This document shows, piece by piece, positions 34,766-61,119 of a stretch of 64,000 bases of DNA. Every line of letters starts with the position of its first letter. Position 1 is the stretch's first letter. Location of the stretch: positions 230,239 through 294,238 of the forward strand of contig VBIW01000037.1 of the NCBI GenBank assembly GCA_005880915.1. Reading direction: 5' to 3'. Made by a program: the position numbers and the translations under genes. The notes beneath the pieces are model-generated. The model had not been told where the DNA came from, did no database searches, and saw nothing but the letters and a program-made list of their open reading frames with translations. The stretch comes from Chloroflexota bacterium. GTDB taxonomy: Bacteria; Chloroflexota; Dormibacteria; Dormibacterales; Dormibacteraceae.

Positions 34766-35582
34766 GGCAGCTGTAGGAGTTCGCCGACTCATTCCAGCCG
34801 ACGAGGCTCCACGTCAGCCCAACCTCGCCGGTGCAGGTCCCAGTCCTGGTGCGCAGGGTCATCGGGTAGGTAACCTGCCCGAATCCCCAGCGTGGCCGTC
34901 CAAGTGAATAGCTGATCACTTCCGGGCCGAAGCTCAACCGTTCGTTGAACAGACCCTGGATCACAAGCGGCGGACGGCCGAAGTAGTCGAATCCGATGGT
35001 GAACAGGGCGGCCGCCGCGAGCGTGATGGCGAGCCATCGCCGAGCCGTCTGCCCGGATGTTCGAGTCGCTCGGGGATCGAGGGCGCGGGGCTGGTAGACG
35101 ACCGTTGTCCCCGCCGCGATGTCGCCCAGGCGCTGGCTGCCAGGGGTATTGAAGACAAGAACCCCGCCGAGCAAATAGAGCAGGGGAAGAAAGTCGACGG
35201 GCTTCAGCAGGTTGCGAACGACCACCGAGCCGACGCCTAGCGGCCTTCCGTCGAGCCGAACGACCTTGAGCCGCATCCAGTACTTGCCCGGCGTGGTCCC
35301 GAACATCGCCTCGGGGATGGTGAAGTACAGCCCCCCGAGCAATGTCAGCCATGGCCACGCGACCGCCGTCGTGGTCGAGTACATGCCGCCGCTGGCGGTG
35401 AAGAAGCCGGAAGTCACCTCAGTCACGCCATAAACGGAGTTCACGACGAGTGAGATGAACCCGAAAACGACCATATCGATGATGAGCGCCCGGAACCGGG
35501 CGAGGCGTGCCTCACGGGCGAATCCAGCCCGGTCTGAAAGCGCCGGTGCGACGGCCGCCACCGCCATGGTGGGCGAGATCAT
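34758..35582 (-). CDS. RDD-family membrane protein
   Basis: 274-aa membrane protein with an RDD domain: RFRALIIDMVVFGFI in the first helix (the R-D pair) and FGTTPGKYWMRLKVVRLDG before the third. A fourth hydrophobic segment at about 200-215 leads to an extracytoplasmic C-terminal part of about 65 residues ending in NSYSCLS with two Cys (TCTGEV and SYSCLS). ATG 35582 is exactly 22 bp from the divergent ispH start and 7 nt from a GAGTCT hexamer. The function is unknown. Confidence 0.8.
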   Translation of the reverse strand: MISPTMAVAAVAPALSDRAGFAREARLARFRALIIDMVVFGFISLVVNSVYGVTEVTSGFFTASGGMYSTTTAVAWPWLTLLGGLYFTIPEAMFGTTPGKYWMRLKVVRLDGRPLGVGSVVVRNLLKPVDFLPLLYLLGGVLVFNTPGSQRLGDIAAGTTVVYQPRALDPRATRTSGQTARRWLAITLAAAALFTIGFDYFGRPPLVIQGLFNERLSFGPEVISYSLGRPRWGFGQVTYPMTLRTRTGTCTGEVGLTWSLVGWNESANSYSCLS

Positions 35583-35588
35583 CTCACG

Positions 35589-35595
35589 TAGACTC
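35589..35595. promoter_or_regulatory. Overlapping divergent -10 (ispH / RDD gene)
   Basis: Plus TAGACT ends 9 nt before ispH ATG 35604; minus GAGTCT ends 7 nt before ATG 35582. Starts are 22 bp apart. Confidence 0.65.
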
Positions 35596-35603
35596 GGGTT
35601 GCG

Positions 35604-36473
35604 ATGGAGGTCCTGAAGATCACACCGCGCGGTTACTGCCACGGCGTCGTCGATGCGTTTCGGATCGCCAAGCGAGTCCGTGAGGAGACCCAGGGCCCCG
35701 TTCATATGCTGGGCATGCTGGTCCACAACACGCACGCCACCGACGACCTGCAGCGCCAGGGCATCGCGCTGGTCGACCAGCCCAATCGCCTGGCCGGTCT
35801 GGAACAGATCCAGGAGGGCACGGTGATCTTCACCGCCCACGGCGTGTCGCCCCAGGTCAAGCAGCGCGCGGTCGAGCTGGGACTGAAACCTGTCGACGCC
35901 ACCTGTTCAGACGTCGTGCGCACGCATGAGCTCGTGGCCGACCTGGCCCGCCAGGGCTACGAGGTCGTTTACATAGGCCGCAAGGGACATCCCGAGCCGG
36001 AGGGCGTGGTCGGCGAGGCGCCGGGCAAGGTCTACCTGGTGCAGGAGCCCGAGGACATCGACGCGCTCGACCTGAAGGGCGACCGCGTCGCGGTGACCTG
36101 CCAGACCACGCTTTCAGTCTGGGATACCGAAGACCTCATAGGCCGGGTCAAGGCGCGCTACCCGCAGGCGGAGGTCCACAACGAGATCTGCCGCGCCACC
36201 CAGGAGCGCCAGGAGGCGGCTGTCGAGGCGGCCAAGGAGGTCGACCTGGTCATCGTCGTCGGCAGCCCGCGCTCGTCCAACTCGCTACGCCTGGTCGAGG
36301 TCGTCAAGAAGCTCGGCCATAAACCTGCCTACCTGGTCGACAGGTTTGAGGACCTCGACCTCTCTTGGTTCAACGGCGCCAAGAAGGTGGGAGTGACCAG
36401 CGGCGCGTCGACGCCGACTCAGCTCACCAGGCGGGTGATCGAATACCTTGAGGCCTTCGAACCTCCGGCCTAG
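35604..36473 (+). CDS. ispH: IspH, HMB-PP reductase
   Basis: Last step of the MEP isoprenoid pathway, giving IPP and DMAPP. 289 aa with the three Fe-S cysteines in PRGYCHGVVDA, VDATCSDVVRTH and NEICRATQERQEA, plus TAHGVSP and TSGASTP. ATG 35604 follows TAGACT by 9 nt. Fully conserved ligands make the call firm. Confidence 0.96.
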   Translation: MEVLKITPRGYCHGVVDAFRIAKRVREETQGPVHMLGMLVHNTHATDDLQRQGIALVDQPNRLAGLEQIQEGTVIFTAHGVSPQVKQRAVELGLKPVDATCSDVVRTHELVADLARQGYEVVYIGRKGHPEPEGVVGEAPGKVYLVQEPEDIDALDLKGDRVAVTCQTTLSVWDTEDLIGRVKARYPQAEVHNEICRATQERQEAAVEAAKEVDLVIVVGSPRSSNSLRLVEVVKKLGHKPAYLVDRFEDLDLSWFNGAKKVGVTSGASTPTQLTRRVIEYLEAFEPPA

Positions 36474-37243
36474 GACGTCCCTCTCAGGCGTCGCAGGACG
36501 CCGCCTAACCCCTTCCGGTCGGCCTGGACGAGAGGCGTCGACGGGGCCGGGGTGACCGGCCCAGGCACCGTCTCAGGCGTGTGGGCCGCGCGCGGCTCGT
36601 GCTCTTCTTCGCGGGCGGTCGATCCTGAGGGGCGGCGGCGGCGACGCCTCCTGGACGGCCCAGCCGCCCGCTCCGGCTTGGCGCTTGCCGCGGGGGGAGC
36701 GGCGACCGCCGGCGGCTCAGGCACGGTGCCGTTGGCGCGGGAACGGCGGCGCCGGCGCCGCGGCGCACTCGTCACGGCTGCAGCCGCCGGCTCGGGGCTC
36801 CGCTGCCGCGGTAGGGCCGCGTCGCGCTTCACCGTGGCTCCGACCTCACCTTCCGCGCACAACGCCCCGTCGGCCGTGTGAACGTCCACCCGCCAGACCA
36901 CGATCGAGGAAAGCGCTCCGCCCACTGGCGGCCGTTTCTGGGTCAGCGTCCAGCGGGCGTAGATCGTTTCCCCGGCGTGGATCGGCCGCGGGAACTTCCA
37001 GTTCAGCCACTCCCACTCTGCGACATGGGGCACGGGCATATCGACCGAACCAAGACCCACGGCCAGGGCGACCACCATCGCGGGCGGTGCCGGGCGCGGG
37101 CCATCGCCCGTGGCCTCGATCGTGAGCGGTGACAGGTCGCCGGCGACGCCGGCAAACAGCGCTATCTCGGCTTCGGAGACGGTGCGGCGGCGCGTCGTCC
37201 ACTCGCCGCCCAGAGGTAGATCGTCGAAAGAAAGCGGCTCCAG
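36470..37243 (-). CDS. MaoC-like hot-dog protein with Arg-rich tail, CTG start
   Basis: 257 aa. Residues 1-135 are a hot-dog fold related to MaoC dehydratases (FAGVAGDLSPLTIEA, then HAGETIYARWTLTQKRPP), probably binding acyl-CoA or acyl-ACP; the catalytic His of MaoC (in the usual N-P-[IL]-H) is replaced by L-T in SPLTIEA. Residues 150-257 are Pro/Ala-rich with runs PRRRRRRSR and SRRRRRRRP. Between an in-frame TGA and the domain there is no ATG/GTG/TTG; CTG 37243 lies 9 nt after TATACT. It may be a binding protein, not an enzyme. Confidence 0.7.
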   Translation of the reverse strand: MEPLSFDDLPLGGEWTTRRRTVSEAEIALFAGVAGDLSPLTIEATGDGPRPAPPAMVVALAVGLGSVDMPVPHVAEWEWLNWKFPRPIHAGETIYARWTLTQKRPPVGGALSSIVVWRVDVHTADGALCAEGEVGATVKRDAALPRQRSPEPAAAAVTSAPRRRRRRSRANGTVPEPPAVAAPPAASAKPERAAGPSRRRRRRRPSGSTAREEEHEPRAAHTPETVPGPVTPAPSTPLVQADRKGLGGVLRRLRGTS

Positions 37244-37252
37244 ATCGGGCCG

Positions 37253-37258
37253 AGTATA
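37253..37258 (-). promoter_or_regulatory. -10 element TATACT before a leaderless CTG
   Basis: Minus TATACT (37258-37253), 9-nt spacer, CTG at 37243. Confidence 0.6.
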
Positions 37259-37322
37259 GATCCAACTCCAATGTCGGGGCGTTAACCTATGGCATCTTCA
37301 GAGCGCCCCAGGAGGCTTGACG

Positions 37323-38480
37323 TTGGATCTCGCGGCCGTACTGCTGGTCACCTTGGTCCTCCTGGTCGCGGCTTTCATCCTGCTCCTCATCTCCCTGATC
37401 CGCCTTCGTGGCGCCACGCGGGAGCTCGAGGCGGCACTCGCGGACGAAAGCGGCGCCCGCGACCGCGCAAGCCTTCTGCTCGCCATGGCGTCCGCGGTCA
37501 ACTCCTCGCTGGCCCTGGAGGAGGTCCTCAACGTGGCCCTGACCCACGCGGGCCGGATCATGGGCGCCGTCGCGGGGGCGATGTACCTAGTCCGCACCGG
37601 TAAGGCAGAGATGCACCGCGAGGCCTCTTACAACCTGACCAACCGCGCCCGTGGGGCTGTGCGCAAGGTCGACGAGGAGCCGTTGCGATCCGCGCTCGCG
37701 GCACTCCGGCCGCTGGTAGTCAAGCTGGACGAGCGGACCGCGCCTGGTCTCGACGCGGGCGGACATCCCATGCACGCGTTGGTCGTCCCGATCCAGCGCT
37801 CAGGCCAGCTGATGGGAGCGATGGAGCTCTACCTCAATGCCTGGCGTGAGCTCAGCGAGGACCAGGCCGACCTCCTGAACGGTGTTGCGTCGCAAGCTGC
37901 AATCGCCATCCGCCACGCCCAGCTTTTCGAAGCCCAAGAGGAAAACGCGCTGACCGACGAGCTGACCAAGCTGCCGAACAGGCGCGCCCTGGCCCAACAG
38001 TTCCTTCGGGAGATGCAGCGGGCGCGTCGCAACCACAAGGGCATCACCTTCGTGATGATCGACCTCGACCACTTCAAGCAGGTGAACGACACGTACGGCC
38101 ACCTGAACGGGGATGCGGTGCTTGCCGAGCTCGCTTCTCTGCTCTCCACCGGCGCCAGAGAGTCGGACGTCTGCGCCCGCTATGGCGGCGAGGAGTTTGC
38201 CTTGATCCTGCCTGAGACCACCGAGGCCGGAGCACGCACCCTCGCCGAACGCATCCGCGCGAAGGTTGCGGCCGCGACGTTTCCGGGAGGTCTGAAGCTG
38301 ACGATCAGCGTCGGCGTCGCTGCGACTACGGAGCCCGCGCTTTTCACCCAGCTCATCGACCGCGCCGACCAGGCGCTGTACGCCGCGAAGCAGGGCGGCC
38401 GCAACCAGGTCCGCATCGCCGACATGAAGGGTCCGGCGCCCAAACCGCACCCGACCAGGCCGGAGGCGGAACCGGTCTAG
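37323..38480 (+). CDS. GAF-GGDEF diguanylate cyclase
   Basis: 385-aa membrane-bound c-di-GMP synthase. One N-terminal helix (about 3-27), a GAF domain (about 45-195) and a GGDEF domain (about 205-370). The active site is YGGEEF and the inhibitory I-site RESD lies five residues before it; DLDHFKQVNDTYGH is intact, so the enzyme should be active and product-inhibited. TTG 37323 has AGGAGG 8 nt upstream; TTG 37317 is too close. YajQ in this window is a possible effector. Confidence 0.92.
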   Translation: MDLAAVLLVTLVLLVAAFILLLISLIRLRGATRELEAALADESGARDRASLLLAMASAVNSSLALEEVLNVALTHAGRIMGAVAGAMYLVRTGKAEMHREASYNLTNRARGAVRKVDEEPLRSALAALRPLVVKLDERTAPGLDAGGHPMHALVVPIQRSGQLMGAMELYLNAWRELSEDQADLLNGVASQAAIAIRHAQLFEAQEENALTDELTKLPNRRALAQQFLREMQRARRNHKGITFVMIDLDHFKQVNDTYGHLNGDAVLAELASLLSTGARESDVCARYGGEEFALILPETTEAGARTLAERIRAKVAAATFPGGLKLTISVGVAATTEPALFTQLIDRADQALYAAKQGGRNQVRIADMKGPAPKPHPTRPEAEPV

Positions 38481-38483
38481 GCT
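38478..38483 (+). promoter_or_regulatory. -10 element made from a stop codon (TAGGCT)
   Basis: TAG is the stop of the GGDEF gene; 8-nt spacer to GTG 38492. Confidence 0.6.
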
Positions 38484-38491
38484 CTACGTCG

Positions 38492-39085
38492 GTGGGCCAT
38501 TTCTGCGTCAACTGCGGCGTGCCCCTCGTCGTGAAAAACATCGAAGGTCGCGCGCTCGAGGTGTGCCCCAACGATTCCTATGTCCTGTGGCGCGACCCCA
38601 AGGTTTCGGCTGCAGTGGTGGTCGAGCACGAGGGAGGCATCGTGCTCGGCAAGCGCAGCATCGAGCCGGGCTACGGCCTGTGGTGCCTGCCGGGCGGCTT
38701 TGTAAACGACGATGAGGATCCCGCGGGCGCCGCCGTACGGGAGTGCATGGAAGAGATCAACGCCACAGTCGAGCTCACGGGCCTGCTCGGCGTGTACCAC
38801 GTCCCGAAGACCACGGCATCGAGCATCATCGGAATCGCCTACCGAGGGCGTGTGGCCGACGGTGCCTCGATCAGCGCCGGGCCGGAGATGCTCGAGGTGC
38901 GGGTCTTTCCGCGTGACGCGTTACCCGAGATCGCTTTCCCGAGCCACCGCGCGGTGCTCGAGGCCTACGTCACGTCCCTGGAGCGGGGGGTGGAAGCGGC
39001 ACCCGTGATCGGCGCCGGCTCGGCTCTGACTCAAGTGCTGCCATTACAAGGACCAGGACAGCGGAAGCCGCGGCGCACGCGGTGA
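38492..39085 (+). CDS. Zinc-ribbon Nudix hydrolase
   Basis: 197 aa. An N-terminal ribbon (FCVNCGVPL, then EVCPND, three Cys seen) precedes a Nudix domain. The Nudix box runs from GGFVNDDEDPAGAAVRECME to EINA: the R-E-x3-E-E core is present, but the usual Gly after it is Asn. Zinc-ribbon Nudix proteins include NADH pyrophosphatases and related enzymes. The C-terminal 38 residues are antisense to the end of the MFS gene. The substrate is unknown. Confidence 0.85.
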   Translation: MGHFCVNCGVPLVVKNIEGRALEVCPNDSYVLWRDPKVSAAVVVEHEGGIVLGKRSIEPGYGLWCLPGGFVNDDEDPAGAAVRECMEEINATVELTGLLGVYHVPKTTASSIIGIAYRGRVADGASISAGPEMLEVRVFPRDALPEIAFPSHRAVLEAYVTSLERGVEAAPVIGAGSALTQVLPLQGPGQRKPRRTR

Positions 39086-40184: not shown

Positions 40185-40191
40185 CCTGCCT

Positions 40192-40197
40192 AACATA
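40192..40197 (-). promoter_or_regulatory. -10 element of the MFS gene (TATGTT)
   Basis: Minus TATGTT (40197-40192), 7-nt spacer to GTG 40184. Confidence 0.5.
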
Positions 40198-40332
40198 CCG
40201 GCCCGGTTGTGCGCAGGTGCGCTGGCGGGAGCCTGGTGCTGGTCATCCTCTCGTTCCAACCGGCAACATGGTCCGGACATTCGGTCGTGAGCAGCAGCGG
40301 CCACCTGCGCTTTGCGGATCTGGATCCAGTAT

Positions 40333-40338
40333 TACCGT
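40333..40338 (+). promoter_or_regulatory. -10-like element of the sirtuin gene (TACCGT)
   Basis: TACCGT, 6-nt spacer to GTG 40345. Confidence 0.4.
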
Positions 40339-40344
40339 GGTGAG

Positions 40345-41097
40345 GTGGGACGGGTGAGTGTCGAGCGAGCCGCTGACATGGTCGCAGCCGCCCAACGTGG
40401 CCTCGCGTTGACCGGGGCCGGGGTCTCGGCGGAGAGCGGCATCCCCACTTTTCGTGGCGAGGGCGGTCTATGGACGAAGTACGACCCGGTAAAGGTGTCC
40501 TCGATCGAGAGCTTTCTTGCCGATCCGACCTCCTACTGGAGCGTCTCGAAGGAGCGCGGCCGGGTCGCACTCGCGGCCAGGCCAAATCCCGGCCACGTTG
40601 CACTGGCCGCGATGGAGGCGGCCGGGCACCTCGTGGCGGTCGTCACGCAGAACACAGATGGCCTGCATCAGGACGCGGGCAGCAAGCGCGTGATCGAGCT
40701 GCACGGATCGGGGCGCAAGGTGCAGTGCCTTGAGTGCGGCAGGCTCGAGGCACGGTCGGAGGTGCAGGCGCGGCTCGAGGTCGAGATGCCACCGCGATGC
40801 CCTACATGTGGCAGCACCTTCTTGAAGCCGACAGTGATCTTGTTCGGCGAGCCGATGCCCGCCGTTGCAATGCACGATGCACTCGAGCTCGCCGGTCAAG
40901 CCGACGTGGTGATCGTGGTCGGATCATCGCTCGTGGTCTATCCGGCGGCGGAGGTTCCACTCGTCGCGGTCCGCGCGGGCGCCCGCCTGATCGTGATCAA
41001 TGCCGAGCCGACACCGCTCGACCGCTTCGCCGAGGTGGTGATCCATGGCCGCTCGGGTGAGGTGTTGCCCCAGATCGCGGCCCTCATAGGTGCGTGA
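40345..41097 (+). CDS. Sir2-family NAD-dependent deacylase
   Basis: 250-aa class-U/III sirtuin that removes acyl groups from protein lysines. NAD motifs GAGVSAESGIPTFRG and TQNTDGLHQDAGS, catalytic His in ELHGS, and a four-Cys zinc site (VQCLECG and RCPTCGS). Start GTG 40345 follows TACCGT; GTG 40354 is an alternative. Relatives regulate acyl-CoA synthetases; no such gene is adjacent. Its end overlaps birA by 14 bp. Confidence 0.93.
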   Translation: MGRVSVERAADMVAAAQRGLALTGAGVSAESGIPTFRGEGGLWTKYDPVKVSSIESFLADPTSYWSVSKERGRVALAARPNPGHVALAAMEAAGHLVAVVTQNTDGLHQDAGSKRVIELHGSGRKVQCLECGRLEARSEVQARLEVEMPPRCPTCGSTFLKPTVILFGEPMPAVAMHDALELAGQADVVIVVGSSLVVYPAAEVPLVAVRAGARLIVINAEPTPLDRFAEVVIHGRSGEVLPQIAALIGA

Positions 41098-41698
41098 CGC
41101 TGCCCGCGACAAATGCCACTCCGTCGACGATCAGCTCGCCGCGCGGTCCGATCCCTTCCGCCAGTCCTTCGGTGATTGCACCCGACACGTCGACTCGCAC
41201 TCGCCGGCCCAGCGTCGCCGACAGGTCGCGCCAGCGCTCGATAACCTGGTCTGGTCGCGCCAAGGTCCAGGTCGCGATCTCTTGACGCAGCCGGTCGAAT
41301 ACGTCGTCTCGTGGTTGATCAAGCGTTGCCGCACCATCCGGCGACCAGGTCAGGTTGATTCCGATGCCGCATATGGCGCGGTCTTGGGTGGCCTCGACCA
41401 GAATCCCGCCCACCTTTCGCTCTTCCAGCAGCAGGTCGTTGGGCCACTTCAGACGGACGCGGCGTGGATCGCATGCTTCTGCCGCCGCCACCCCAGCCGC
41501 AAGGCTCAGCAGCGGGTTGGGCTCGAGCACGAAGGAGACCAGCAGCGCCGTGCCCTCGGGCGACTCCCAGCGGCGGTCGAGCCGTCCGCGTCCGGCCGTC
41601 TGATGATCGGCGAGCACGATCGAGCCGATGGGCAGGCTGCGGGCGACATCCTGAGTCGACGTGACCGACCCCAGGCGCCAAACTTCCGCTTCACCCAC
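41084..41698 (-). CDS. birA: Biotin-[carboxylase carrier] ligase, no DNA-binding domain
   Basis: Attaches biotin to carboxylase carrier proteins. 204 aa, class I (no N-terminal helix-turn-helix). Signs: TSTQDVARSL, TAGRGRLDRRW (biotinyl-AMP loop), LKWPNDLLLEERKVGGILVE and GIGINL. GTG 41698 gives MGEAEVWRLGSVTSTQD and lies 7 nt after TAGCTT. The carboxyltransferase at 58.5 kb would need a biotinylated partner, so this enzyme fits that need. Confidence 0.9.
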   Translation of the reverse strand: MGEAEVWRLGSVTSTQDVARSLPIGSIVLADHQTAGRGRLDRRWESPEGTALLVSFVLEPNPLLSLAAGVAAAEACDPRRVRLKWPNDLLLEERKVGGILVEATQDRAICGIGINLTWSPDGAATLDQPRDDVFDRLRQEIATWTLARPDQVIERWRDLSATLGRRVRVDVSGAITEGLAEGIGPRGELIVDGVAFVAGSVTHL

Positions 41699-41704
41699 GA
41701 TCGG

Positions 41705-41711
41705 TAAGCTA
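41705..41711. promoter_or_regulatory. Overlapping divergent -10 (TAAGCTA)
   Basis: Plus TAAGCT ends 9 nt before ATG 41720; minus TAGCTT ends 7 nt before GTG 41698. Starts are 22 bp apart. The clearest symmetric case together with 60138-60144. Confidence 0.75.
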
Positions 41712-41719
41712 ACCGAGTC

Positions 41720-41908
41720 ATGAAGCTCCATCGAGCGATCGCGCTCGTGGTGATGATGGCGATGGCGGTGGTTCTGGTTGTTTTTCTCACCGCCGTCGGC
41801 ATCGCGAACTTCGACACCCACAGCCTCATCGCGCTCGGGGTGGTGGTGGCCGCGGCTGCCATCAGCGGCGTCGCGTTCAGCTGGAATCGGTACTTCAAGC
41901 GCCAGTAG
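41720..41908 (+). CDS. 62-aa two-helix membrane protein
   Basis: Small membrane protein, unknown. Two hydrophobic helices (about 6-28 and 35-53) and a basic end (WNRYFKRQ). ATG 41720 follows TAAGCT by 9 nt. Its TAG shares the G with the fgd GTG (TAGTG), so it is the leader gene of the F420 cluster and may be needed mainly for coupled translation, or may have its own role in the membrane. Confidence 0.75.
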
Positions 41909-49289: not shown

Positions 49290-50579
49290 ATGACGGATTC
49301 TGGTCAGCCGCCCAACACTCCGGTTCCAGATTGGGCGCCGACACCTGACCCGGGCGATCTACAAGCTCCAGCGACACCGAGCACCTCGCCGCCATTCGCA
49401 GCCGATGTGGCCGCGACAATGCGCCTGATCCCGGTTCCACCGCCAACGACGCCTCCGCCGCCGGTCGCCGCGATCCCCACCCCGCCCCAGGTACCGGGCG
49501 AGCGCTACATCGGCAAGTACCGCGTGAAGGCTGAGCTGGGCCGGGGAGGCATGGGCGCCGTCTACCTGGCAGAGCAGCCGGGGCTCGGTCGCGAGGTGGC
49601 GATCAAGGAGCTCATCCAGTCGGCGGATCCAGTCGCCCTGAAGCGCTTCCTCCAGGAGGCTCAGGTCATGGCGCGGACCAGCCACCCCAACCTCGTCCAG
49701 GTCCATGACATGGAGCTCATGGGCGACATCAACTACCTCGTCCTCGAGTTCGTCCGTGGCCGCTCGTTGCGTGACTGGATGAACCACGGGCCGATCTCGC
49801 CGCCCCAGGTCTTCGCGGTCATGCACGGAGTCCTGCAGGCTCTCGATTACGCCCACCGGCACGCGATCGTGCATCGCGACATGAAGCCCGAGAACGTGCT
49901 GATCTCCGAAGAGGGCCTGGTCAAGGTGGCCGACTTCGGTATCGCGCGCCTGACGGACGACACTGCAGTCGGCGGAACCGCCACCAAGACTGGCACCACG
50001 GTCGGCACGCCGCAGTACATGTCGCCAGAGCAGGTGGCGTCGAGCAAGGTCGACGGTCGAAGCGACCTTTACTCGGCCGGGATCATGCTTTACGAGCTGG
50101 TGGCCGGGGAGCCTCCTTTCACCGCGACCGAAGCCGACGGCCCTTTCACGCTCATGGCCAAGCACGTCCAGGCTCCACCCAAGCCTCCGTCAGTCTTCCG
50201 GCCGGGCCTGAACCCGGAGCTTGAGCATCTGATCCTCAAGTCCCTATCCAAGCGGCCGGACGATCGATTCCAGACGGGCAAAGCCTTCGACGAAGCGCTC
50301 TCGCGCGTGGCGGACCAGATGAGCCCGGGTTGGCAGCGCAGCCTCGAGCCTGGAGCCGACCTGTCGCAGATGGTGCCTCGCGCCATGCCTGGCGTCATGC
50401 CGTCGACGCCAATCGGCATGGCCATCGCCCAACCCGGAACGGCGGCGACGCCGCCCCACGTCATCTACAACCCGGCCCCGCCTGTCAAGCCCGCAGCCAG
50501 GCAAGCGATGAGCTGCCTGAGCGTCGTCGGCCTCTTCGTCGTGGCGATCACCAGCCTTGGACTGCTGCTGATTCGTTAG
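49290..50579 (+). CDS. PknB-like Ser/Thr protein kinase, tail-anchored
   Basis: 429 aa. A 70-residue Pro/Thr-rich N-terminus precedes the kinase domain (about 75-335): LGRGGMGAVYLAEQ, VAIKEL, HRDMKPENVL, DFGIARL, and GTPQYMSPEQ. All catalytic residues are present. A linker leads to one C-terminal helix (about 407-427, SVVGLFVVAITSLGLLLI) with no outer domain, so it has no PASTA-type sensor. Targets are unknown. Confidence 0.93.
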   Translation: MTDSGQPPNTPVPDWAPTPDPGDLQAPATPSTSPPFAADVAATMRLIPVPPPTTPPPPVAAIPTPPQVPGERYIGKYRVKAELGRGGMGAVYLAEQPGLGREVAIKELIQSADPVALKRFLQEAQVMARTSHPNLVQVHDMELMGDINYLVLEFVRGRSLRDWMNHGPISPPQVFAVMHGVLQALDYAHRHAIVHRDMKPENVLISEEGLVKVADFGIARLTDDTAVGGTATKTGTTVGTPQYMSPEQVASSKVDGRSDLYSAGIMLYELVAGEPPFTATEADGPFTLMAKHVQAPPKPPSVFRPGLNPELEHLILKSLSKRPDDRFQTGKAFDEALSRVADQMSPGWQRSLEPGADLSQMVPRAMPGVMPSTPIGMAIAQPGTAATPPHVIYNPAPPVKPAARQAMSCLSVVGLFVVAITSLGLLLIR

Positions 50580-52741
50580 TTCGGCGACTGGGCTCGGCGC
50601 GCGAGCTCTGCGCGGGCTTCCTCGCCGACCAGGATGTCGCTCGATGCCGACTCGCCGGCCGCAATCACCGTCTGCTGCGTGTACTGAGCGGTGTAGGCGT
50701 GATGCGACTGGGTCGCCAACTCTGTGGGGAACTGCACCCAGGGGGCCTCGGGCGTCTCGCGGATCGCGGTCAATTGGTAGATCCGGAAGGTTTCGGCCGA
50801 CTTGCCCTTCAGCTGGACTCCCGGCACAAGGTCCACCGCGACGTAGTCCTTGCACATCTCGTAGGTCTCCTGGCCGATCAAGACTTGGAACGCCGGAGCG
50901 TGGGCGCAAAAGCGCGCCGCCGTGTTTACCGTGTCACCGAGAGCCGTGTACTGGAGCCGGCTGCGCGAACCCATGTTGCCGACGACGGCCGGGCCTGAGT
51001 TGATGCCGATGCCCCATCGAATCGGGGGCAGGCCCTTCGCGAGAAGCTTCTGCTGCAGCTCGGGAGCATGGTTGACGAGGTCGTAGGCGCAGCGCACCGC
51101 GAGCAGGGCGTGGTTTCCCTGCAGGCGGGGCGCGTTCCAGAAAGCCATGATCTCGTCGCCCACGTACTTGTCGACGGTTCCGTCCCAGGTGAAGATGGTC
51201 CCGCTCAGCTGGTCGAGATACAGCTGCACGAGCTCGGTCACGTCGCGAGCGGCCATGGATTCCGACATCGAGGTGAAGCCGCGGATGTCGACGAACATCA
51301 GCGTGATGTCGCGCCGCTCGCCGCCGCGCAGGATGTCTTCAACGCCGCCTTTTGTCCTGGCCAGCTCGGCCACGATCTCGGGCTTCAGATACTGGCCGAA
51401 CAGCGCCGTGACCTTGCGCCTTTCGCGGTCTTCGTAGAGAAACCGATACGCGGTTACGCCGGTGTACGTCATGGCGATGGCGAGCCAGGTGTGGAAGAGG
51501 TCGGGAACCCAGCCGTTGAAGACCGAGAGCGCGGACATGCCGACTGTGAATAGAACCAGGGCGCCGACAGTGCCCACAAACCCCCACAGCACCGTCACCC
51601 GTGAGACGCCGACGGCTGTTGCCAGCGCCAGCAGCAGCATGATCCCGACGAGCACGGCCGGCGCCTCGGGGACGGGGAAGCTTGGCTGCAGGGGGAGAAA
51701 CATGTTCAGGACATTGGCATGCAGCTCGACTCCAGGCATGGGTATGCCGTTTCCACCCGGCGTCAAAAACTCGTCATGCACGCCGGTGAGGCCGTACGCG
51801 CCGATCAGGACGACTTTGTCCTTCACGCTGGCGGAGGGGAACGTACCGTCGTAAACATCGCCGAACGAGAGGTACTGATGCGCCTTCTGGAACCCGCCCG
51901 GCCCGACGATGTATTTGATCAGCGCGGCGCCCGTTGCGTCGACCTGGAGAGGCTGCGCCCATGCAGTACCGAAGTTCGCCTGGCTCCCCGCCTCGATCAG
52001 GTTGACGCTCGCCCAATCAGATCCCAGCTGCTGAATCCGGCTCGCCGTAAACCCGATCGAGTTGAGCATCGACGTGGTGCATGTGCCGGCGCTGTAGCAA
52101 GCCGGCTGCACGAACATCGGGATCCTTCGTACGACCCCGTCTGAGTCGGTGACGATGTCCGTGGAGGCGAGGACCACGTTCTTGTCAGAGTTCTGGCAGG
52201 GCACGCTCGGATTCGTGTTGACGTCGGAGCACCAGAACTCTTTGAGGGGGATCTGGTCGAGACCCGACGGCCTTGTCTTGGCCGATGCCTGCTTGAAGAA
52301 CCCGTTGTCCGCGATGTTCTGCTCGGCCGGGTAGGAGAGGATGACCGGCACCTTGCTCTGGCGCAGGGTCGCGGCCAGGTCGCCATCAGTGATGGGGTCG
52401 CGCGGATCGGGCAAGCTGACGTCCAGCCCGACCACCGCGGCGCCGGCGGCCTGCAGATTACGGAGTGCCAGCGCGTACTTGTCGCGAGATATCGGGAACT
52501 GGCCGACTTTGCCGATGCTGGCGTCGTCGATCCCGACGATGACGATGTTCGAGCTAGGGGTGGATTCGCTGAACAACCGGTCTTCCGGATGGACCGCGAG
52601 GTTGACCTGGCAAGTGTCCATCCGCGCGTCGCAAGCCACCTGCTGCGTATAGAGGACGTACATCAGGACGGTGAGGACGAGCGCCATCAAGACCGCCACG
52701 GCGGTCCGGTAGGTGTACCAGTAGCGAATGCGGCGGCCCAA
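50576..52741 (-). CDS. CHASE2-type adenylate cyclase
   Basis: 721-aa class III nucleotide cyclase. After a first helix (about 15-38) a large extracytoplasmic CHASE2 domain (about 50-345) ends in three helices, then a cyclase domain (about 465-640) with LMFVDIRGFTSMSE (metal Asp), DKYVGDEIMAFWNAP and YTALGDTVNTAARF. TTG 52741 (MGRRIRYWY) is 22 bp from the divergent DUF72 start; ATG 52756 is in frame. The sensed signal is unknown. Confidence 0.9.
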   Translation of the reverse strand: MGRRIRYWYTYRTAVAVLMALVLTVLMYVLYTQQVACDARMDTCQVNLAVHPEDRLFSESTPSSNIVIVGIDDASIGKVGQFPISRDKYALALRNLQAAGAAVVGLDVSLPDPRDPITDGDLAATLRQSKVPVILSYPAEQNIADNGFFKQASAKTRPSGLDQIPLKEFWCSDVNTNPSVPCQNSDKNVVLASTDIVTDSDGVVRRIPMFVQPACYSAGTCTTSMLNSIGFTASRIQQLGSDWASVNLIEAGSQANFGTAWAQPLQVDATGAALIKYIVGPGGFQKAHQYLSFGDVYDGTFPSASVKDKVVLIGAYGLTGVHDEFLTPGGNGIPMPGVELHANVLNMFLPLQPSFPVPEAPAVLVGIMLLLALATAVGVSRVTVLWGFVGTVGALVLFTVGMSALSVFNGWVPDLFHTWLAIAMTYTGVTAYRFLYEDRERRKVTALFGQYLKPEIVAELARTKGGVEDILRGGERRDITLMFVDIRGFTSMSESMAARDVTELVQLYLDQLSGTIFTWDGTVDKYVGDEIMAFWNAPRLQGNHALLAVRCAYDLVNHAPELQQKLLAKGLPPIRWGIGINSGPAVVGNMGSRSRLQYTALGDTVNTAARFCAHAPAFQVLIGQETYEMCKDYVAVDLVPGVQLKGKSAETFRIYQLTAIRETPEAPWVQFPTELATQSHHAYTAQYTQQTVIAAGESASSDILVGEEARAELARRAQSPN

Positions 52742-52750: not shown

Positions 52751-52757
52751 GATCATA
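52751..52757. promoter_or_regulatory. Overlapping divergent -10 (GATCATA)
   Basis: Minus TATGAT ends 10 nt before TTG 52741; plus GATCAT ends 6 nt before GTG 52763. Starts are 22 bp apart. Confidence 0.55.
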
Positions 52758-52762: not shown

Positions 52763-53668
52763 GTGGCAGTCCTTTGCGGCATCGCCGGATGGGCCGACAA
52801 ATCGCTGATCGATTCCAAGCTCTTCTATCCGCTGTCGGTGAAGAGCTCCATCGACCGGCTCCGCTTCTACACGACCCAATTCCCGCTGGTGGAGGTTGAC
52901 TCCACGTACTACGGAATCCCAAAGCCGGAGACCGTCGAAAGCTGGGCGGCCCAGACGCCGGCCGGCTTCACCTTCGACGTGAAGTCCTTCTCATTGTTCA
53001 CCAACCACCCGACCCGGCCGCTCTCATTGCCGCCTGACATCAGGGGGGACCTACCGGCCAATCTGCGCGATAAGAGGATCCTCTACGCGGAGCACCTCCC
53101 GGAGGACGTCGTCGACGAGTGTTGGGAGCGGTTTCGAGGCGCTCTGGAGCCGCTTAGAGCCGCCGGCAAGCTGGCCGCGGTCTTCTTTCAGTTCCCGCCG
53201 TGGTTCCTGCCGTCGTCGCGTTCCCTAGCTTACGTCGAGCAGTGTCAGGAGCGCATGTTCGGCTTCCAGATCGCCGTCGAGTTCCGCAAGCCGGAGTGGC
53301 TTGACGACAGGCATCGCGACGGGACGCTCGCCTTCCTCCGAACGCGAGACATTCCTTATGTCGCCGTCGACGTGCCGGAAGGCCATGCCACGAGCATGCC
53401 GTCCGTTTTCCACGTGACCTCACCGAAGCTGGCGGTCGTCCGGTCCCACGGCCGCAACCACGAGACCTGGGACCTTCGAGGCGTGCCACCCAATGTCCGC
53501 TTTCGCTACGACTACAACGAGGAGGAGCTTGGCCAATGGGTGCCGCGGATCAAGGAGATGGAGCGGTCGGCAGGCCGCGTCCACGCGCTGATGAACAACA
53601 ATTATTCGAACTACTCGGTCAAGAACGCGCAGCAGCTCGAGCGCATGCTCGAGGCCTGGCAGAAGTAG
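52763..53668 (+). CDS. DUF72-family protein
   Basis: 301-aa TIM-barrel-like protein of the YecE/DUF72 family: LCGIAGWADKSLIDSKLFYP, QFPLVEVDSTYYGIP, FAFDVKSF-like FTFDVKSFSLFTNH, and AVEFRKPEWLDD. The C-terminus has ALMNNNYSNYSVKNAQQL. The biochemical role is unknown. GTG 52763 is the only sensible start. It abuts the convergent SDR gene without a gap. Confidence 0.9.
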   Translation: MAVLCGIAGWADKSLIDSKLFYPLSVKSSIDRLRFYTTQFPLVEVDSTYYGIPKPETVESWAAQTPAGFTFDVKSFSLFTNHPTRPLSLPPDIRGDLPANLRDKRILYAEHLPEDVVDECWERFRGALEPLRAAGKLAAVFFQFPPWFLPSSRSLAYVEQCQERMFGFQIAVEFRKPEWLDDRHRDGTLAFLRTRDIPYVAVDVPEGHATSMPSVFHVTSPKLAVVRSHGRNHETWDLRGVPPNVRFRYDYNEEELGQWVPRIKEMERSAGRVHALMNNNYSNYSVKNAQQLERMLEAWQK

Positions 53669-54445
53669 TCACTCGCGAAGGCTGCGCCGCCTGACCTCGC
53701 CGATCGCGTGGTCCATCAGTCCGCCGAAGACCGGCTCGGCGAAGTGCGCGACGCGGATTGGAGCGACCATGGCATCGCGGCGCGGAAAGCGAGCCGTCCG
53801 GACGATCAAGTTGGCCACCCACGCCGCCGGGTGCTGAGGCCCCACCACCCCGCCCATCCCTTCGAAGAACTCTGTCCCGCTCGTCACGTACGGGTACACG
53901 ACGCAAACCTTCACGCCGCTGCCCGACAGCTCGCCGCGAAGCGCGTGGGAAAAGCCGACGACCGCGTGCTTCGTCGCCGCGTAGACGGCTGAATACGGCG
54001 TCGCCCGGAAACCCGCGATAGAAGCGACGTTGATGATCACGCCGCGCCGGCGCTCCAGCATCCACGGCAGAGCTGCCTGTGTGGTGGTCACGATCCCCTT
54101 GAAGTTGGTCGCGACGAGCTCGTCGACCTTTTCTTCGGGCATCTGCTGCGCCCGACCCATCCAGCCGACACCGGCGTTGTTGACGAGGACGTCGAGCCGC
54201 TCGAAGTCACGCAGAGTCGCCGCGATGAAAGCGCGGGCTTGCGCCCGCTGGCCGACGTCGAGCAGCCGGACGTTCGCCTCGGGCGACCCGGCCTGGCGGC
54301 ACCTCTGGGCGACCGAGTTGAGCTTTTCGAGGCGCCGGGCGCCGAGCTCGAGCCGCGCCCCGTGGCGCGCGAACGCCAGCGCGGTCGCTTCGCCGATGCC
54401 GCTCGACGCGCCCGTGATGGCGACAACCGCTCCCTTCAGCCGCAC
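53669..54445 (-). CDS. SDR-family oxidoreductase
   Basis: 258-aa short-chain dehydrogenase. GASSGIG (12-18), NNAGVGW near 92, catalytic Ser in INVASIAGF and Y-x3-K in YAATKHAVVG. The late motif with TARFPRRDAMVAPIRVAHF resembles DltE/ketoreductase-like members. The substrate is unknown. GTG 54445 is 22 bp from the divergent dehydrogenase start. Confidence 0.88.
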   Translation of the reverse strand: MRLKGAVVAITGASSGIGEATALAFARHGARLELGARRLEKLNSVAQRCRQAGSPEANVRLLDVGQRAQARAFIAATLRDFERLDVLVNNAGVGWMGRAQQMPEEKVDELVATNFKGIVTTTQAALPWMLERRRGVIINVASIAGFRATPYSAVYAATKHAVVGFSHALRGELSGSGVKVCVVYPYVTSGTEFFEGMGGVVGPQHPAAWVANLIVRTARFPRRDAMVAPIRVAHFAEPVFGGLMDHAIGEVRRRSLRE

Positions 54446-54450
54446 CGACC

Positions 54451-54457
54451 TATCATC
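54451..54457. promoter_or_regulatory. Overlapping divergent -10 (TATCATC)
   Basis: Plus TATCAT ends 10 nt before GTG 54467; minus GATGAT ends 6 nt before GTG 54445. Starts are 22 bp apart. Confidence 0.6.
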
Positions 54458-54466
54458 GCGTTCAGA

Positions 54467-55504
54467 GTGAGGGCGCTGACTTTTCAGGGTGAAGGCGACG
54501 TCAAGGTCATCGACGTGCCCAAGCCGAGCATCAGAAGCTCTGGCGACGCGCTGCTCAAGGTGACGTTGGGCGCCGTATGCGGCTCAGATCTGCACATCCT
54601 TCATGGACACACCCCGATGAATCCCGGTGCTGTCCTCGGCCATGAGTTCGTCGGCGTGGTGGAGGACGTGGGGAGCGAGGTCAAGCGCTTCAAGCCGGGC
54701 GATCACGTCGTCTCCAGCTTCTTCACCTCGTGCGGCCACTGCGCGCTTTGCCGCAAGGGCTGGTTCAACCAGTGCGTCGACAAGGGCACGTTCGGCCATG
54801 GCGAGTACTTCGGCGGGTTGGGAGGAGGTCAGGCTGAGTACGTCGTTGTGCCGAATGCCGACCACACGATGGAGACCATTCCGCCCGGCATGACCGACGA
54901 GCAGGCGATCTTCGTCGGCGACATCCTGGCCACGGGTTTCTTTGGCGCAGAGCGGGCGGAGATCAGGCCGGGCGACATGGTTGCCGTTGTCGGCGCCGGC
55001 CCTGTCGGCCTGATGGCGACGATGTGCGCACAGCTCTTCGGACCGTCCCGGACATTTGTGATCGACATGGTCGACTCGCGCCTCGAGGTCGCCCAGGAGC
55101 TGGGCGGCATCCCGATCAACACCAAGGAGGTCCATCCCGTCGAAGCGATCGAGAAGGCGACGGATGGCGTCGGGGCCGACTCGAGCATCGAGTGTGTCGG
55201 GCTGCTTCCCGCGGTGGACACCGCGATTCACTGCGTGCGCGGCGGCGGAACGGTCTCGATGGTCGGCGTGCCGAGCGCCGTGCTGGGCGATTTCCCCTAC
55301 ATGCGCATGTGGCTCAAGTCGCTGACGTTTCGGGCGGGCTGGTGCAACGTGCAGAAATACATGCGACCGCTGCTGGACCTCATTGCCGCCGGGAGGCTGC
55401 AGCCCGAGAAGATCATCAGCCACCGCATGAAGCTCGACCAGGCCGAAGAGGCCTACCGCATGTTCGACGCGCGCCAGGCCACGAAGATAGTTCTTACTCC
55501 GTAA
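54467..55504 (+). CDS. Zinc-dependent alcohol dehydrogenase
   Basis: 345-aa MDR enzyme. Catalytic zinc ligands Cys (AVCGSDLH) and His-Glu (GHEFVG); structural zinc loop CGHCALCRKGWFNQC (four Cys); NAD motif VVGAGPVGLMA. It resembles glutathione-independent formaldehyde or threonine-type dehydrogenases. The start GTG 54467 gives MRALTFQGEGDVKVIDVP. Repeat copy B begins right after its stop. Confidence 0.92.
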   Translation: MRALTFQGEGDVKVIDVPKPSIRSSGDALLKVTLGAVCGSDLHILHGHTPMNPGAVLGHEFVGVVEDVGSEVKRFKPGDHVVSSFFTSCGHCALCRKGWFNQCVDKGTFGHGEYFGGLGGGQAEYVVVPNADHTMETIPPGMTDEQAIFVGDILATGFFGAERAEIRPGDMVAVVGAGPVGLMATMCAQLFGPSRTFVIDMVDSRLEVAQELGGIPINTKEVHPVEAIEKATDGVGADSSIECVGLLPAVDTAIHCVRGGGTVSMVGVPSAVLGDFPYMRMWLKSLTFRAGWCNVQKYMRPLLDLIAAGRLQPEKIISHRMKLDQAEEAYRMFDARQATKIVLTP

Positions 55505-55614: not shown

Positions 55615-55624
55615 CCACTCTGCT

Positions 55625-56131: not shown

Positions 56132-56192
56132 GACGCAGTGCTCCGTTGTGTGGTGCGGGTTGGGGGAATTGTAGGATTGCCGCGCAAAAGAC

Positions 56193-58181: not shown

Positions 58182-58184
58182 AGC

Positions 58185-58397
58185 GTGACGACCACCGCGA
58201 CCGGCGTTTTGCTAGTGGCGTTAGGGATCCCCTTCGTGCTCAACGCCGACAGGGTTTCCGATAGGTTGGCCGCTTTCGTCAAAGACCACCCCAGCTGGAT
58301 GCGCTCGCGTGCCGACGAGCATCCAGCGACCTGGCGGCTTGCGGGCGGGGCGTTCGTCCTGACGGGCATCGTATTCATCGTCTTGGGATTGCGATAG
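58185..58397 (+). CDS. 70-aa two-helix membrane protein
   Basis: GTG 58185 three bases after the glycosidase stop; MTTTATGVLLVALGIPFVLN is the first helix and GAFVLTGIVFIVLGLR the second, with a charged loop between. Unknown function; resembles DUF6199-type small membrane proteins only in layout. Confidence 0.6.
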   Translation: MTTTATGVLLVALGIPFVLNADRVSDRLAAFVKDHPSWMRSRADEHPATWRLAGGAFVLTGIVFIVLGLR

Positions 58398-58410
58398 GGC
58401 TCCGGGTCGG

Positions 58411-58463
58411 CACACGCGTTCGGCGCCTGACGAACACTCCCAGCCGGTCGATACCCGCGTGTG
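58411..58463. other. Inverted repeat between convergent genes
   Basis: CACACGCG (58411-58418) and CGCGTGTG (58456-58463) could form an 8-bp stem with a 37-nt loop. GGCGCCTGACG and GGCGCCTAACG also repeat directly. No U-tract; possible Rho-independent-like stop for both strands, or chance in GC-rich DNA. Confidence 0.35.
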
Positions 58464-58491
58464 GCGCCTAACGCGCCATACCCTCCGCCGC

Positions 58492-60129
58492 CTAGAGAGG
58501 GATGTTGCCGTGCTTGCGTGATGGCCGCTCGACGGTCTTGCGCAGGCAAAGCTGGAGCCCGCGCACCAGCTCGCGCCGGGTCTGGCTCGGCTCGATGACG
58601 TCGTCGATGTAGCCGCGCTCCGCCGCCACGTAGGGGTTGGCGAACCGAGCGGTGTACTCGGCGACGAGGGCCTGGCGACGTGCCGCGGGATCTGGAGCGA
58701 CTACGAGGTCGCGCTTGTAGATGATGTTGACCGCGGCCTCCGGGCCCATGACCGCGATCTCCGCGGTCGGCCACGCAAGGTTCAGGTCGGCCCCCATCTG
58801 CTTGGGCGACATGACGCAGTACGCGCCGCCGTAGTCCTTGCGGGTGATCACCGTCAGCTTCGGCACCGTCGCCTCGGCGTAGGCGTACAGCAGCTTCGCG
58901 CCGTGGCGGATGATCCCGCCGTGCTCCTGGTCCCGCCCCGGCAGGTAGCCGGGCACGTCGACGAACGAGATGATCGGGATGCCGAATGCGTCGCAAAAGC
59001 GGATGAACCGAGCCGCCTTCACCGACGCGTTGATGTCGATGGCACCCGCCAGCACCTTGGGCTGGTTGCCGACGATCCCGACGACGTGTCCGCCCAGGCG
59101 GCCGAGCCCGACGACGATGTTGGGCGCGAAGAACGGCTGGACCTCGAAGAACTCCCGCCCGTCGAGCACGCGTGACACCACCTCGCGCATGTCGTACGGC
59201 TTGTTCGCGGACTCAGGGACGATCGTCTGCAGCTCGACATCCGCACGTTCGACGTCGTCCGTGGTCGGCACGAACGGAGGTCTCTCGTTGTTGGATGAGG
59301 GCAGGTACGAGAGCAGCTTGCGCACGCCGGCCGCGCATTCCTGCTCGGTCTTGGGCAGAAAGTGCGCGACGCCGGATGTTGCGTTATGCACGTGACCGCC
59401 GCCCAGCTCGTCGAACGAAACGGCCTCGCCGGTGACCACCTTGATCACCTCCGGACCGGTGATGAACATGTAGCCCTGACCCGCCACGATGAAGATGAAG
59501 TCCGTGATGGCAGGTGAGTAGACCGCGCCGCCGGTGCACGGCCCGGCGATGATGCTCAGCTGCGGGATCACACCGGACGAGCGGACGTTGCGGTAGAAGA
59601 TGTCCGCATAGCCCGCCAGCGCCACCACGCCTTCCTGGATGCGTGCGCCGCCCGAGTCATTGATGCCGATGATGGGCACCCGGTTGCGCAGGGCGAGCTC
59701 CTGGACCTTGACGATCTTCTCCGCGGTCACCTCGCCTAACGACCCGCCGAAAACCGTCGCGTCATAGGCGTACACGGCGACGGGCTTGCGGTCGATCTCA
59801 CCGAACCCGGCCACGACTCCGTCGCCGGCGATCTTGCGGTCTTCCATGCCGAATCCGTGCGCGCGGTGCGTCGCGAAAACGTCGAGTTCGACGAACGAGC
59901 CCTCGTCGAGCAGCATCTCGATGCGGTCGCGCGCCGTCGCTTTGCCCGCTGCTCGACGTTTGTTCGCGGCCTCGGTCTCGGCGTGTAACGCCTGGTAGCG
60001 GCGCTTGCGGTACTGGTTGATCTTCTGCTCTGAAACAGTTGTCGCCTCGCGCTGCGGGGCCTCGACTCCTTCGAGGCTTGGCGCGGTCCGGCGCACGGGC
60101 GAAAGAGACCTGGGTTTGCGTGCAGCCAT
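58492..60129 (-). CDS. pccB: Acyl-CoA carboxylase carboxyltransferase subunit
   Basis: 545-aa carboxyltransferase (AccD5/PccB type) that moves CO2 from biotin to acetyl- or propionyl-CoA. ARDRIEMLLDEGSFVE, FGGSLGEVTAEKIVK, INDSGGARIQEGV, GPCTGGAVYSPA and the C-terminal half's GYLPGRDQEHGGIIRHGAKLLYAYAEATVP (given as a span) plus GGAYCVMSPK. The 35 N-terminal residues are extra and basic. ATG 60129 follows TACGAT by 9 nt. The biotinylated alpha subunit is not in the window; birA is. Confidence 0.93.
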   Translation of the reverse strand: MAARKPRSLSPVRRTAPSLEGVEAPQREATTVSEQKINQYRKRRYQALHAETEAANKRRAAGKATARDRIEMLLDEGSFVELDVFATHRAHGFGMEDRKIAGDGVVAGFGEIDRKPVAVYAYDATVFGGSLGEVTAEKIVKVQELALRNRVPIIGINDSGGARIQEGVVALAGYADIFYRNVRSSGVIPQLSIIAGPCTGGAVYSPAITDFIFIVAGQGYMFITGPEVIKVVTGEAVSFDELGGGHVHNATSGVAHFLPKTEQECAAGVRKLLSYLPSSNNERPPFVPTTDDVERADVELQTIVPESANKPYDMREVVSRVLDGREFFEVQPFFAPNIVVGLGRLGGHVVGIVGNQPKVLAGAIDINASVKAARFIRFCDAFGIPIISFVDVPGYLPGRDQEHGGIIRHGAKLLYAYAEATVPKLTVITRKDYGGAYCVMSPKQMGADLNLAWPTAEIAVMGPEAAVNIIYKRDLVVAPDPAARRQALVAEYTARFANPYVAAERGYIDDVIEPSQTRRELVRGLQLCLRKTVERPSRKHGNIPL

Positions 60130-60137
60130 TGCGCATA

Positions 60138-60144
60138 TATCGTA
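60138..60144. promoter_or_regulatory. Overlapping divergent -10 (TATCGTA)
   Basis: Plus TATCGT ends 7 nt before GTG 60151 (LysR); minus TACGAT ends 9 nt before ATG 60129 (carboxyltransferase). Starts are 22 bp apart. Confidence 0.75.
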
Positions 60145-60150
60145 GGCGCC

Positions 60151-61119
60151 GTGCCTAAGGCCACCTTGAAGGTCGATCTGGAGCGCATGGTCACCCTCCG
60201 CCAGCTGCGCACGTTCAAGACGGTGGCCGACCTGAACAGCTTCAGCCTGGCCGCCCAGCGCCTCAAGCTGAGCCAGCCCTCGATCTCGTACCAGGTCAAA
60301 GAGCTGGAGGAAGCGCTCGGCGTGCCGCTGCTCGACCGGCTCGGCAAGAGGGTTCAGCTGACCGAGGCGGGCACGCTCCTGTACGGCTACGCGCGAAGGA
60401 TGCTCGACGTTCTGGACGAAGCAACCATCGCGATCGAGGAGATGCGTGGCATCCAGCGCGGGACCCTGCGCGTGGGCGCCAGCACGACGGTCGGCATCTA
60501 CCTCCTGCCGGCGGCGCTCGGCGCGTTCAAGAAGCTCCACCCCGGCCTTGTGATCTCGCTCGAGATCGGAACGCGGGTCCGGGTCCAGGAGCAAGTGCTG
60601 CGCAATGAGCTGGACCTCGCCGTGGTCGGTCCCGCGTCTAAGGACCCGGACCTCGCGATCGTCCCGTTCATCAGCGACGAGCTGGTCGTGGTGGCGCCGG
60701 CGAACCATCCATTGTCCGGGCGCCACGGGCTAGGACTCAAAGACCTGGCCGGTCAGCCCTTCATCATGCGCGAGGCTGCTTCGGGCAGCCGGCTGTCACT
60801 GGAGAAGGCGGCGCGGAAGGCTGGGACAAAGCTGGTGGTCGCGATGGAGCTGGGCTCAAACGGCGCGATCAAGCATGCGGTCGAGTCCGGTCTCGGGCTG
60901 GCGGTGATCTCTCGCTATGCCTGCGTGCTCGAGCTGTCGAGCGGCCGCCTCGTCGAGCTTGACGTGCGCGGCTTTCCAATCCGCCGCGACTGGCACATCG
61001 TCCATCTGCGTAGGCGCAGGCTGCCGTCGTCGGTGACCGCGTTCATCGAATTCCTCAAAGACAGGAGCTGGCTTTCCCAGAACGGCTCGCGCGGCAAGGT
61101 CCGCCCGCCTACCGACTGA
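60151..61119 (+). CDS. LysR-family regulator, CysB/CbbR-like
   Basis: 322 aa. Winged helix at about 14-72 (VTLRQLRTFKTVADLNSFS, LKLSQPSISYQVKELEEALG) and a periplasmic-binding-like effector domain with LRVGASTTVGIYLLPAALG. The N-terminal MPKATLKVDLER is an extra lead. It shares a promoter with the carboxyltransferase, so it may control that gene; a LysR half-site box (T-N11-A) was not identified with confidence. Confidence 0.92.
   Translation: MPKATLKVDLERMVTLRQLRTFKTVADLNSFSLAAQRLKLSQPSISYQVKELEEALGVPLLDRLGKRVQLTEAGTLLYGYARRMLDVLDEATIAIEEMRGIQRGTLRVGASTTVGIYLLPAALGAFKKLHPGLVISLEIGTRVRVQEQVLRNELDLAVVGPASKDPDLAIVPFISDELVVVAPANHPLSGRHGLGLKDLAGQPFIMREAASGSRLSLEKAARKAGTKLVVAMELGSNGAIKHAVESGLGLAVISRYACVLELSSGRLVELDVRGFPIRRDWHIVHLRRRRLPSSVTAFIEFLKDRSWLSQNGSRGKVRPPTD

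Follow-up and report, generated by a model that had tools for sequence, protein, structure and literature searches.

Why do divergent genes in one bacterial genome so often begin about 22 bp apart, on either side of what looks like a single promoter element? The question is raised by a stretch of 64,000 nucleotides, here called the window, from contig VBIW01000037.1 (assembly GCA_005880915.1, positions 230,239 to 294,238) of a Chloroflexota bacterium of the family Dormibacteraceae, an uncultured organism that probably lives in soil. A sequence-only reading of the window had proposed eight divergent pairs, each sharing one symmetric -10 element between closely opposed start codons. Using contigs from seven genomes of the family, we find that the distance between divergent start codons peaks near 22 bp, and that most short gaps hold one near-symmetric heptamer, NANNNTN, flanked on each side, at about 6-12 nt, by a conserved start codon. 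We consider it likely that these short gaps are bidirectional sigma-70-type promoters that would drive two leaderless or nearly leaderless mRNAs. What was observed directly in the sampled contigs is where the elements lie, how starts and core are conserved, and that the distances form a peak.

All eight sites are present in the sequence with the coordinates, distances (22 bp in five; 21, 23 and 19 bp in the others) and heptamers that the sequence-only reading described. Seven of them separate two real genes, but the eighth, 5938/5959, is no pair: the supposed minus-strand start at 5938 opens 13 codons only, and the start of the conserved divergent gene lies at 5900, 59 bp away from 5959. Six of the real pairs have Pfam matches on both sides (RDD/IspH, SDR/Zn-ADH, CHASE2-cyclase/DUF72, carboxyltransferase/LysR, PHP-HHH/FolE and MFS/SRPBCC), and the seventh joins BirA to a 62-aa protein that has no Pfam match and is conserved in five other genomes. 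The NANNNTN core is found in all seven in the bacterium's own genome. The genes and their shared heptamers, the latter given without strand, are as follows.

3..623, minus strand: MFS transporter with its start codon at 623, running off the window (Pfam MFS_3/MFS_1)
630..636: putative shared -10 heptamer GATCATC, between 623 and 642 (from the sequence)
642..1121, plus strand: SRPBCC / polyketide cyclase-like protein (Pfam)
22829..23839, minus strand: PHP + HHH_8 domain protein (Pfam, HHH_8 just below the cut-off)
23846..23852: putative shared -10-like heptamer AATTGTG, within the longer conserved block CGTAAATTGTGTGAG (alignment)
23862..24440, plus strand: GTP cyclohydrolase I, FolE (Pfam)
34758..35582, minus strand: RDD family membrane protein (Pfam)
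35589..35595: putative shared -10 heptamer TAGACTC (conservation upstream of IspH)
35604..36473, plus strand: IspH (LytB) (Pfam)
41084..41698, minus strand: biotin ligase, BirA-like (Pfam BPL_LplA_LipB)
41705..41711: putative shared -10 heptamer TAAGCTA, whose four fixed positions are all symmetric (conservation)
41720..41908, plus strand: 62-aa hydrophobic protein, no Pfam match (64-78% identity in five other genomes)
50576..52741, minus strand: CHASE2 + adenylate/guanylate cyclase with a TTG start (Pfam)
52751..52757: putative shared -10 heptamer GATCATA / TATGATC (invariant block of the gap)
52763..53668, plus strand: DUF72 protein (Pfam)
53669..54445, minus strand: short-chain dehydrogenase, SDR (Pfam)
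54451..54457: putative shared -10 heptamer TATCATC (comparison of relatives)
54467..55504, plus strand: zinc alcohol dehydrogenase, ADH (Pfam)
58492..60129, minus strand: acyl-CoA carboxylase-type carboxyltransferase (Pfam Carboxyl_trans)
60138..60144: putative shared -10 heptamer TATCGTA, whose four fixed positions are all symmetric (conservation)
60151..61119, plus strand: LysR-family regulator (Pfam)

Is the short distance a feature of the genome at large? The source assembly (G000) comprises 4.13 Mb in 228 contigs and is listed as 96% complete with 8.6% contamination; no 16S rRNA match was found in it. Our sample consisted of contigs of seven genomes of the family, G000 included and six of them from the same genus, with a total of 1.98 Mb. 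Genes were called with a simple purpose-written gene finder whose first pass used coding-only starts, and in a second pass starts were placed by the onset of conservation across reciprocal-best orthologs together with shared start-codon columns, the promoter motif being unused. The second pass gave 166 divergent pairs, of which 130 were confident, meaning that each start was common to at least half of its orthologs. Absence of a genome-wide peak at 20-23 bp had been named beforehand as refuting the proposal, and a peak near 22 bp is present: 23 of the confident pairs lie at 20-24 bp, compared with 2 at 10-14, 1 at 15-19, 8 at 25-29 and 3 at 30-34 bp, and each remaining 5-bp bin up to 149 bp holds 1-6. 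Negative distances arose in 6/166 pairs, none confident and all PHP/FolE, where the start method failed. On the window's own contig (384.6 kb), five of the 32 confident pairs are exactly 22 bp apart. As orthologous pairs are not independent, they were collapsed, ignoring orientation, into 37 groups, among which paralogs may be over-merged; one group lies at 10 bp, eleven at 21-29.5, one at 35, none at 36-62 and 24 at 63 bp or more. Seven of the 13 groups at 10-59 bp fall within 20-24 bp (binomial P = 1e-4 against a uniform distribution).

A peak of this kind could be an artefact of start-codon choice or of gene prediction, and the two sets of starts bear on this directly. Coding-only starts blur the peak: they place 6/55 divergent pairs of the own contig at 17-30 bp and three at 31-44, and 10/72 and one, respectively, in G005, with no excess in G011 (1 and 3 of 17) or G016 (2 and 2 of 14). 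In addition to the false pair at 5938/5959, two window pairs came out otherwise than listed when starts were placed by conservation: 623/642 was called as 599/642, and 23839/23862 returned -7. These two and the BirA pair were judged by aligned N-termini, because the method disagreed in the first, failed in the second and, in the third, the 62-aa gene falls below the size limit of the gene caller. The peak is nevertheless sharpened, relative to coding-only starts, when starts are taken from conservation and are blind to the motif, which argues that it does not stem from start choice; moreover, at least 80% of orthologs share both starts in four of the five window pairs at 22 bp, the fifth (BirA) resting on its aligned N-termini. 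We regard an artefact as extremely improbable.

What lies in the short gaps? We defined a short-gap group as one with a member at 15-31 bp (n = 12). The reciprocal arrangement of -11A and -7T, a shared ANNNT, was found in 8 of the 12 groups, where 1.74 would be expected for NANNNTN; the same number carry the stricter form [TG]ANNNT[AC], with at least one end T or A and both spacers of 6-10 nt, against 0.32 expected when gaps are shuffled. Counted per member, the core occurs in 22/33 against 1.17 expected (spacers 6-11). The proposal that one symmetric -10 between divergent genes is used repeatedly is thus supported, both in these groups and in the window pairs.

The spacing of single genes suggests why the distance is close to 22 bp. 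TANNNT peaks at d = 6-10 nt before the start in all six gene classes that we tabulated, most weakly in co-directional genes with gaps below 15 nt. The same motif emerged when an expectation-maximisation start model was run on divergent genes; run on co-directional genes, the model drifted to codon patterns and was dropped. Among 61 unpaired groups the spacer from -10 to start is 6 nt in 14, 7 in 18, 8 in 12, 9 in 11 and 10 in 6. For a shared heptamer the start-to-start distance equals 6 + d1 + d2, d being this ordinary spacing of single leaderless-type genes, and convolving the single-gene spacers predicts 18-26 bp with a mean of 21.25. A shared -10 plus ordinary leaderless spacing would therefore explain most of the peak. 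The idea of a fixed layout with an exact 22-bp ruler did not survive, as close forms of the window pairs range over 19-32 bp in relatives (other forms from 41 bp to several hundred bp) and the distance follows the spacer sum.

These observations suggest a simple mechanism. In a near-symmetric -10 with the core ANNNT, the key A and T of one strand stand opposite the key T and A of its complement. RNA polymerase carrying the housekeeping sigma factor would bind the single -10 in either orientation and open one bubble, and a leaderless mRNA, or one with a leader of a few nt, would be made in either direction, with start codons ~6-12 nt beyond the element; because both start codons lie so close to one element, two genes would need only ~22 bp between them. 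The sigma factor, the transcription start sites, the two-way use of the element and leaderless translation are here inferred from the DNA. A leader of 2-4 nt may be present on one of the two mRNAs; with several starts 9-10 nt away from the -10, a leader of a few nt and no leader at all are equally likely.

The individual pairs were then compared across relatives, rows without alignable N-termini being excluded from the scoring. In the cyclase/DUF72 gap, GATCATA is the only invariant block in 12/12 aligned sequences, flanks and spacers varying around it, and the cyclase start is TTG in all 12 and GTG in G022; the alignment omits the truncated L050, the near-duplicate L053, L055 (49 bp) and G022 (53 bp). 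The shared form stands at 21-26 bp in 13/15 scored loci, the exceptions being G022 and L055. The CHASE2-cyclase also gives a sub-cut-off Pfam match to a coronavirus domain, which is surely spurious. TAAGCTA is kept in 5/5 genomes where BirA and the 62-aa gene are adjacent, at 19-25 bp; in G022 the two genes are 253 bp apart and the 62-aa gene carries TAAGCTG. TATCGTA is present between carboxyltransferase and LysR in 4/4 genomes scored (19-22 bp). The gap of this pair in the window (60129-60151) is 21 bp, so that a usual LysR operator would not fit outside coding DNA. MFS and SRPBCC are adjacent at 19-27 bp in 6/6 genomes scored, own included, with a NANNNTN core at spacers of 5-13 in five of them.

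For PHP/FolE, core and an aligned PHP start codon are found in 7/7 genomes with a gap of 20 or 23 bp, although G022 lacks a start codon at the aligned FolE position. The gap of this pair (23840-23861) holds a conserved block, CGTAAATTGTGTGAG, that is longer than a -10, identical in 5/7 genomes and altered in G005 and G022; it may be the site of an additional regulator. At RDD/IspH the core lies within the spacer limits in 3/5, the other two standing at 27 and 32 bp. TANNNT occurs shortly upstream of IspH in 29/30 loci by reading, own included, the exception being L034; about 60 nt upstream of the IspH match in L034, TAGACTC occurs a second time ahead of an IspH-like N-terminus, which looks like a duplicated or shifted gene start. 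IspH matches in six genomes of one related genus (G044, G048, G050, G052, G056 and G058) contain one in-frame TAG, possibly an alignment overrunning a stop.

Several of our results weigh against a shared promoter. Four of the 12 short-gap groups lack the core at spacers of 6-10, one of them (28 bp, in G005) having overlapping -10s, ANNNTANNNT; as a general layout we rejected such overlap, which is present only in that group and in L055. Of 262 windows of 21 nt upstream of co-directional genes, 30 also hold the core. Since the two key positions of every TANNNT -10 are symmetric to begin with, the heptamer by itself is weakly diagnostic; the unusual feature is that a conserved start codon flanks it on either side. 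Pairs do not have A or C as the seventh base significantly more often (12/17 vs 28/61, P = 0.10), and we looked for a -35 signal and saw nothing clear. The eleven short groups average 24.2 bp, and because three of them (27, 28 and 29.5 bp) exceed the predicted 18-26, overlapping -10s or longer leaders would be needed for the shoulder of the distribution. The paired TANNNT, taking the better hexamer, stands 9-10 nt from the start more often than the unpaired (11/17 vs 17/61, P = 0.009), which speaks against a leader of zero length on that side. Finally, an ATG at 52756, inside TATGATC and 7 bp from 52763, is in frame with the cyclase TTG in 10/14 loci, own included, and out of frame in four; the coding-only caller chose this ATG and the conservation method the TTG at 52741. 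We favour the TTG, on which the 22-bp distance of cyclase/DUF72 depends.

A rival reading is that the heptamer is the -10 of one gene only, while a promoter within the coding sequence of that gene drives the other, which then has a longer leader. The half-symmetry of ordinary -10s fits this, as does IspH, which keeps TANNNTC in 27/30 loci while RDD is matched beside it in only six (both counted by reading), so that this -10 belongs to IspH and its RDD partner comes and goes. Leadered genes would usually need Shine-Dalgarno (SD) motifs, though, and SD-like 5-mers occur in only 1/30 groups of genes with a divergent gap below 32 bp, against 27/107 tightly packed co-directional genes; TANNNT lies at 5-11 nt in 17 of the same 30 groups. 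The distance peak also sits where two leaderless spacings predict it, and wider relatives of the SDR/ADH pair show, by reading, a -10-like hexamer close to each start. A single-gene -10 is in our judgement unlikely, and we retain the bidirectional promoter.

How might such promoters arise? The SDR/ADH pair offers a series of forms. A shared -10 at 21-22 bp is found in G000, G016, L049 and L050, overlapping -10s at 24 bp in L055 (AGCTTAGAAT), and two separate -10s, by reading, at 41 bp in L053, L056 and L061 and at 44 bp in G022. In the distant L062 and L063, ADH keeps its own TAGAAT and SDR is 638-673 bp away. In a tree of the neighbouring cyclase the genomes with the shared form make up one clade (99/97) nested among separate forms. 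This nesting, together with the separate ADH -10 of the distant relatives, speaks for an ancestral state with separate promoters and a derived shared one, as judged from one pair and one tree. Loss of spacer between two divergent TANNNT promoters, until one -10 serves both, would yield the smallest workable divergent pair and would pile divergent pairs up near 22 bp. It is tempting, though at present doubtful, to extend this to a recurrent promoter fusion in the lineage, in which -10s overlap and then merge, leaving a sizeable fraction of divergent pairs on one bidirectional element feeding two leaderless mRNAs and coupling the expression and evolution of unrelated housekeeping genes.

One could also read the pairs as regulatory switches whose two genes are mutually exclusive by design. 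According to the accessible text of PMC12825309, two polymerases cannot, for steric reasons, occupy one such promoter simultaneously, and one direction, when strongly activated, can repress the other. The same source nevertheless reports that basal transcription in E. coli was too low for competition at all five bidirectional promoters tested. The partner genes here show no obvious functional antagonism, and they are absent or separated in some relatives. We think it very unlikely that the pairs would act as switches by design; a bidirectional promoter remains our preferred interpretation.

For comparison, in 150 kb of E. coli K-12, 17 annotated divergent pairs are no closer than 39 bp, a count that omits three pairs interrupted by RNA genes or IS (89, 529 and 721 bp). 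The closest pair is 36 bp apart, by reading, in 250 of the 325 kb of Deinococcus deserti plasmid 1, and 31 bp apart in the first 50 kb of D. radiodurans MP1; in 250 of the 257 kb of Thermus pTT27 the cobT/phosphatase pair stands at 27 bp, and one annotation overlaps. This Thermus pair is the one annotated pair at 20-30 bp found in the plasmid stretches of the two genera. Families of the same class gave, with coding-only starts, 0/21, 2/16 and 1/16 pairs at 17-30 bp (3/53 in total). These comparator samples are small and the plasmid gene tables incomplete, and they do not settle lineage specificity.

The founding study of bidirectional promoters was that of Warman and colleagues in 2021. Such promoters are established in E. 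coli, Salmonella and other prokaryotes, with a spacing of 18 bp between start sites and reciprocal -11A/-7T (Middlemiss et al. 2023, PMC10268837; Warman et al. 2026, PMC12825309). The gaps described here resemble them in that a near-symmetric -10 would be shared, -11A and -7T of both strands coinciding. Core and usual spacing likewise predict start sites 18 bp apart, the commonest class of the E. coli type and within the Warman/Grainger definition of two opposite-strand start sites 7-25 bp apart; the overlapping form of L055 (ANNNTANNNT) would give ~23 bp, another common class there. They differ in that both start codons stand ~6-12 nt off the element, too close for a leader with an SD motif, and in that bidirectional promoters have been recognised from start-site maps whereas the present pairs are known from sequence alone. 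The word 'leaderless' does not occur in the accessible text of PMC12825309. Leaderless genes with TANNNT ~10 nt upstream are themselves established (Zheng et al. 2011, PMC3160421), and the genes studied here are like those treated in the accessible part of that paper, with TANNNT 6-10 nt before the start, few SD motifs and high GC. That work takes genes singly, 'divergent' being absent from its main text as far as accessible, whereas here one element would serve two genes.

In a search of titles and abstract openings among the matches listed, which covered few subscription papers, leaderless divergent pairs on one shared -10 were not described; such gaps would be an extreme variant of the bidirectional promoter already known. 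Bidirectional promoters become proposable from DNA sequence in an uncultured group, as conserved coding pairs ~22 bp apart, and promoter fusion can be put to a direct test with the SDR/ADH series of separate, overlapping and shared forms. It is leaderless mRNA that renders the smallest divergent pair workable, and leaderless lineages may thus be where bidirectional promoters matter most.

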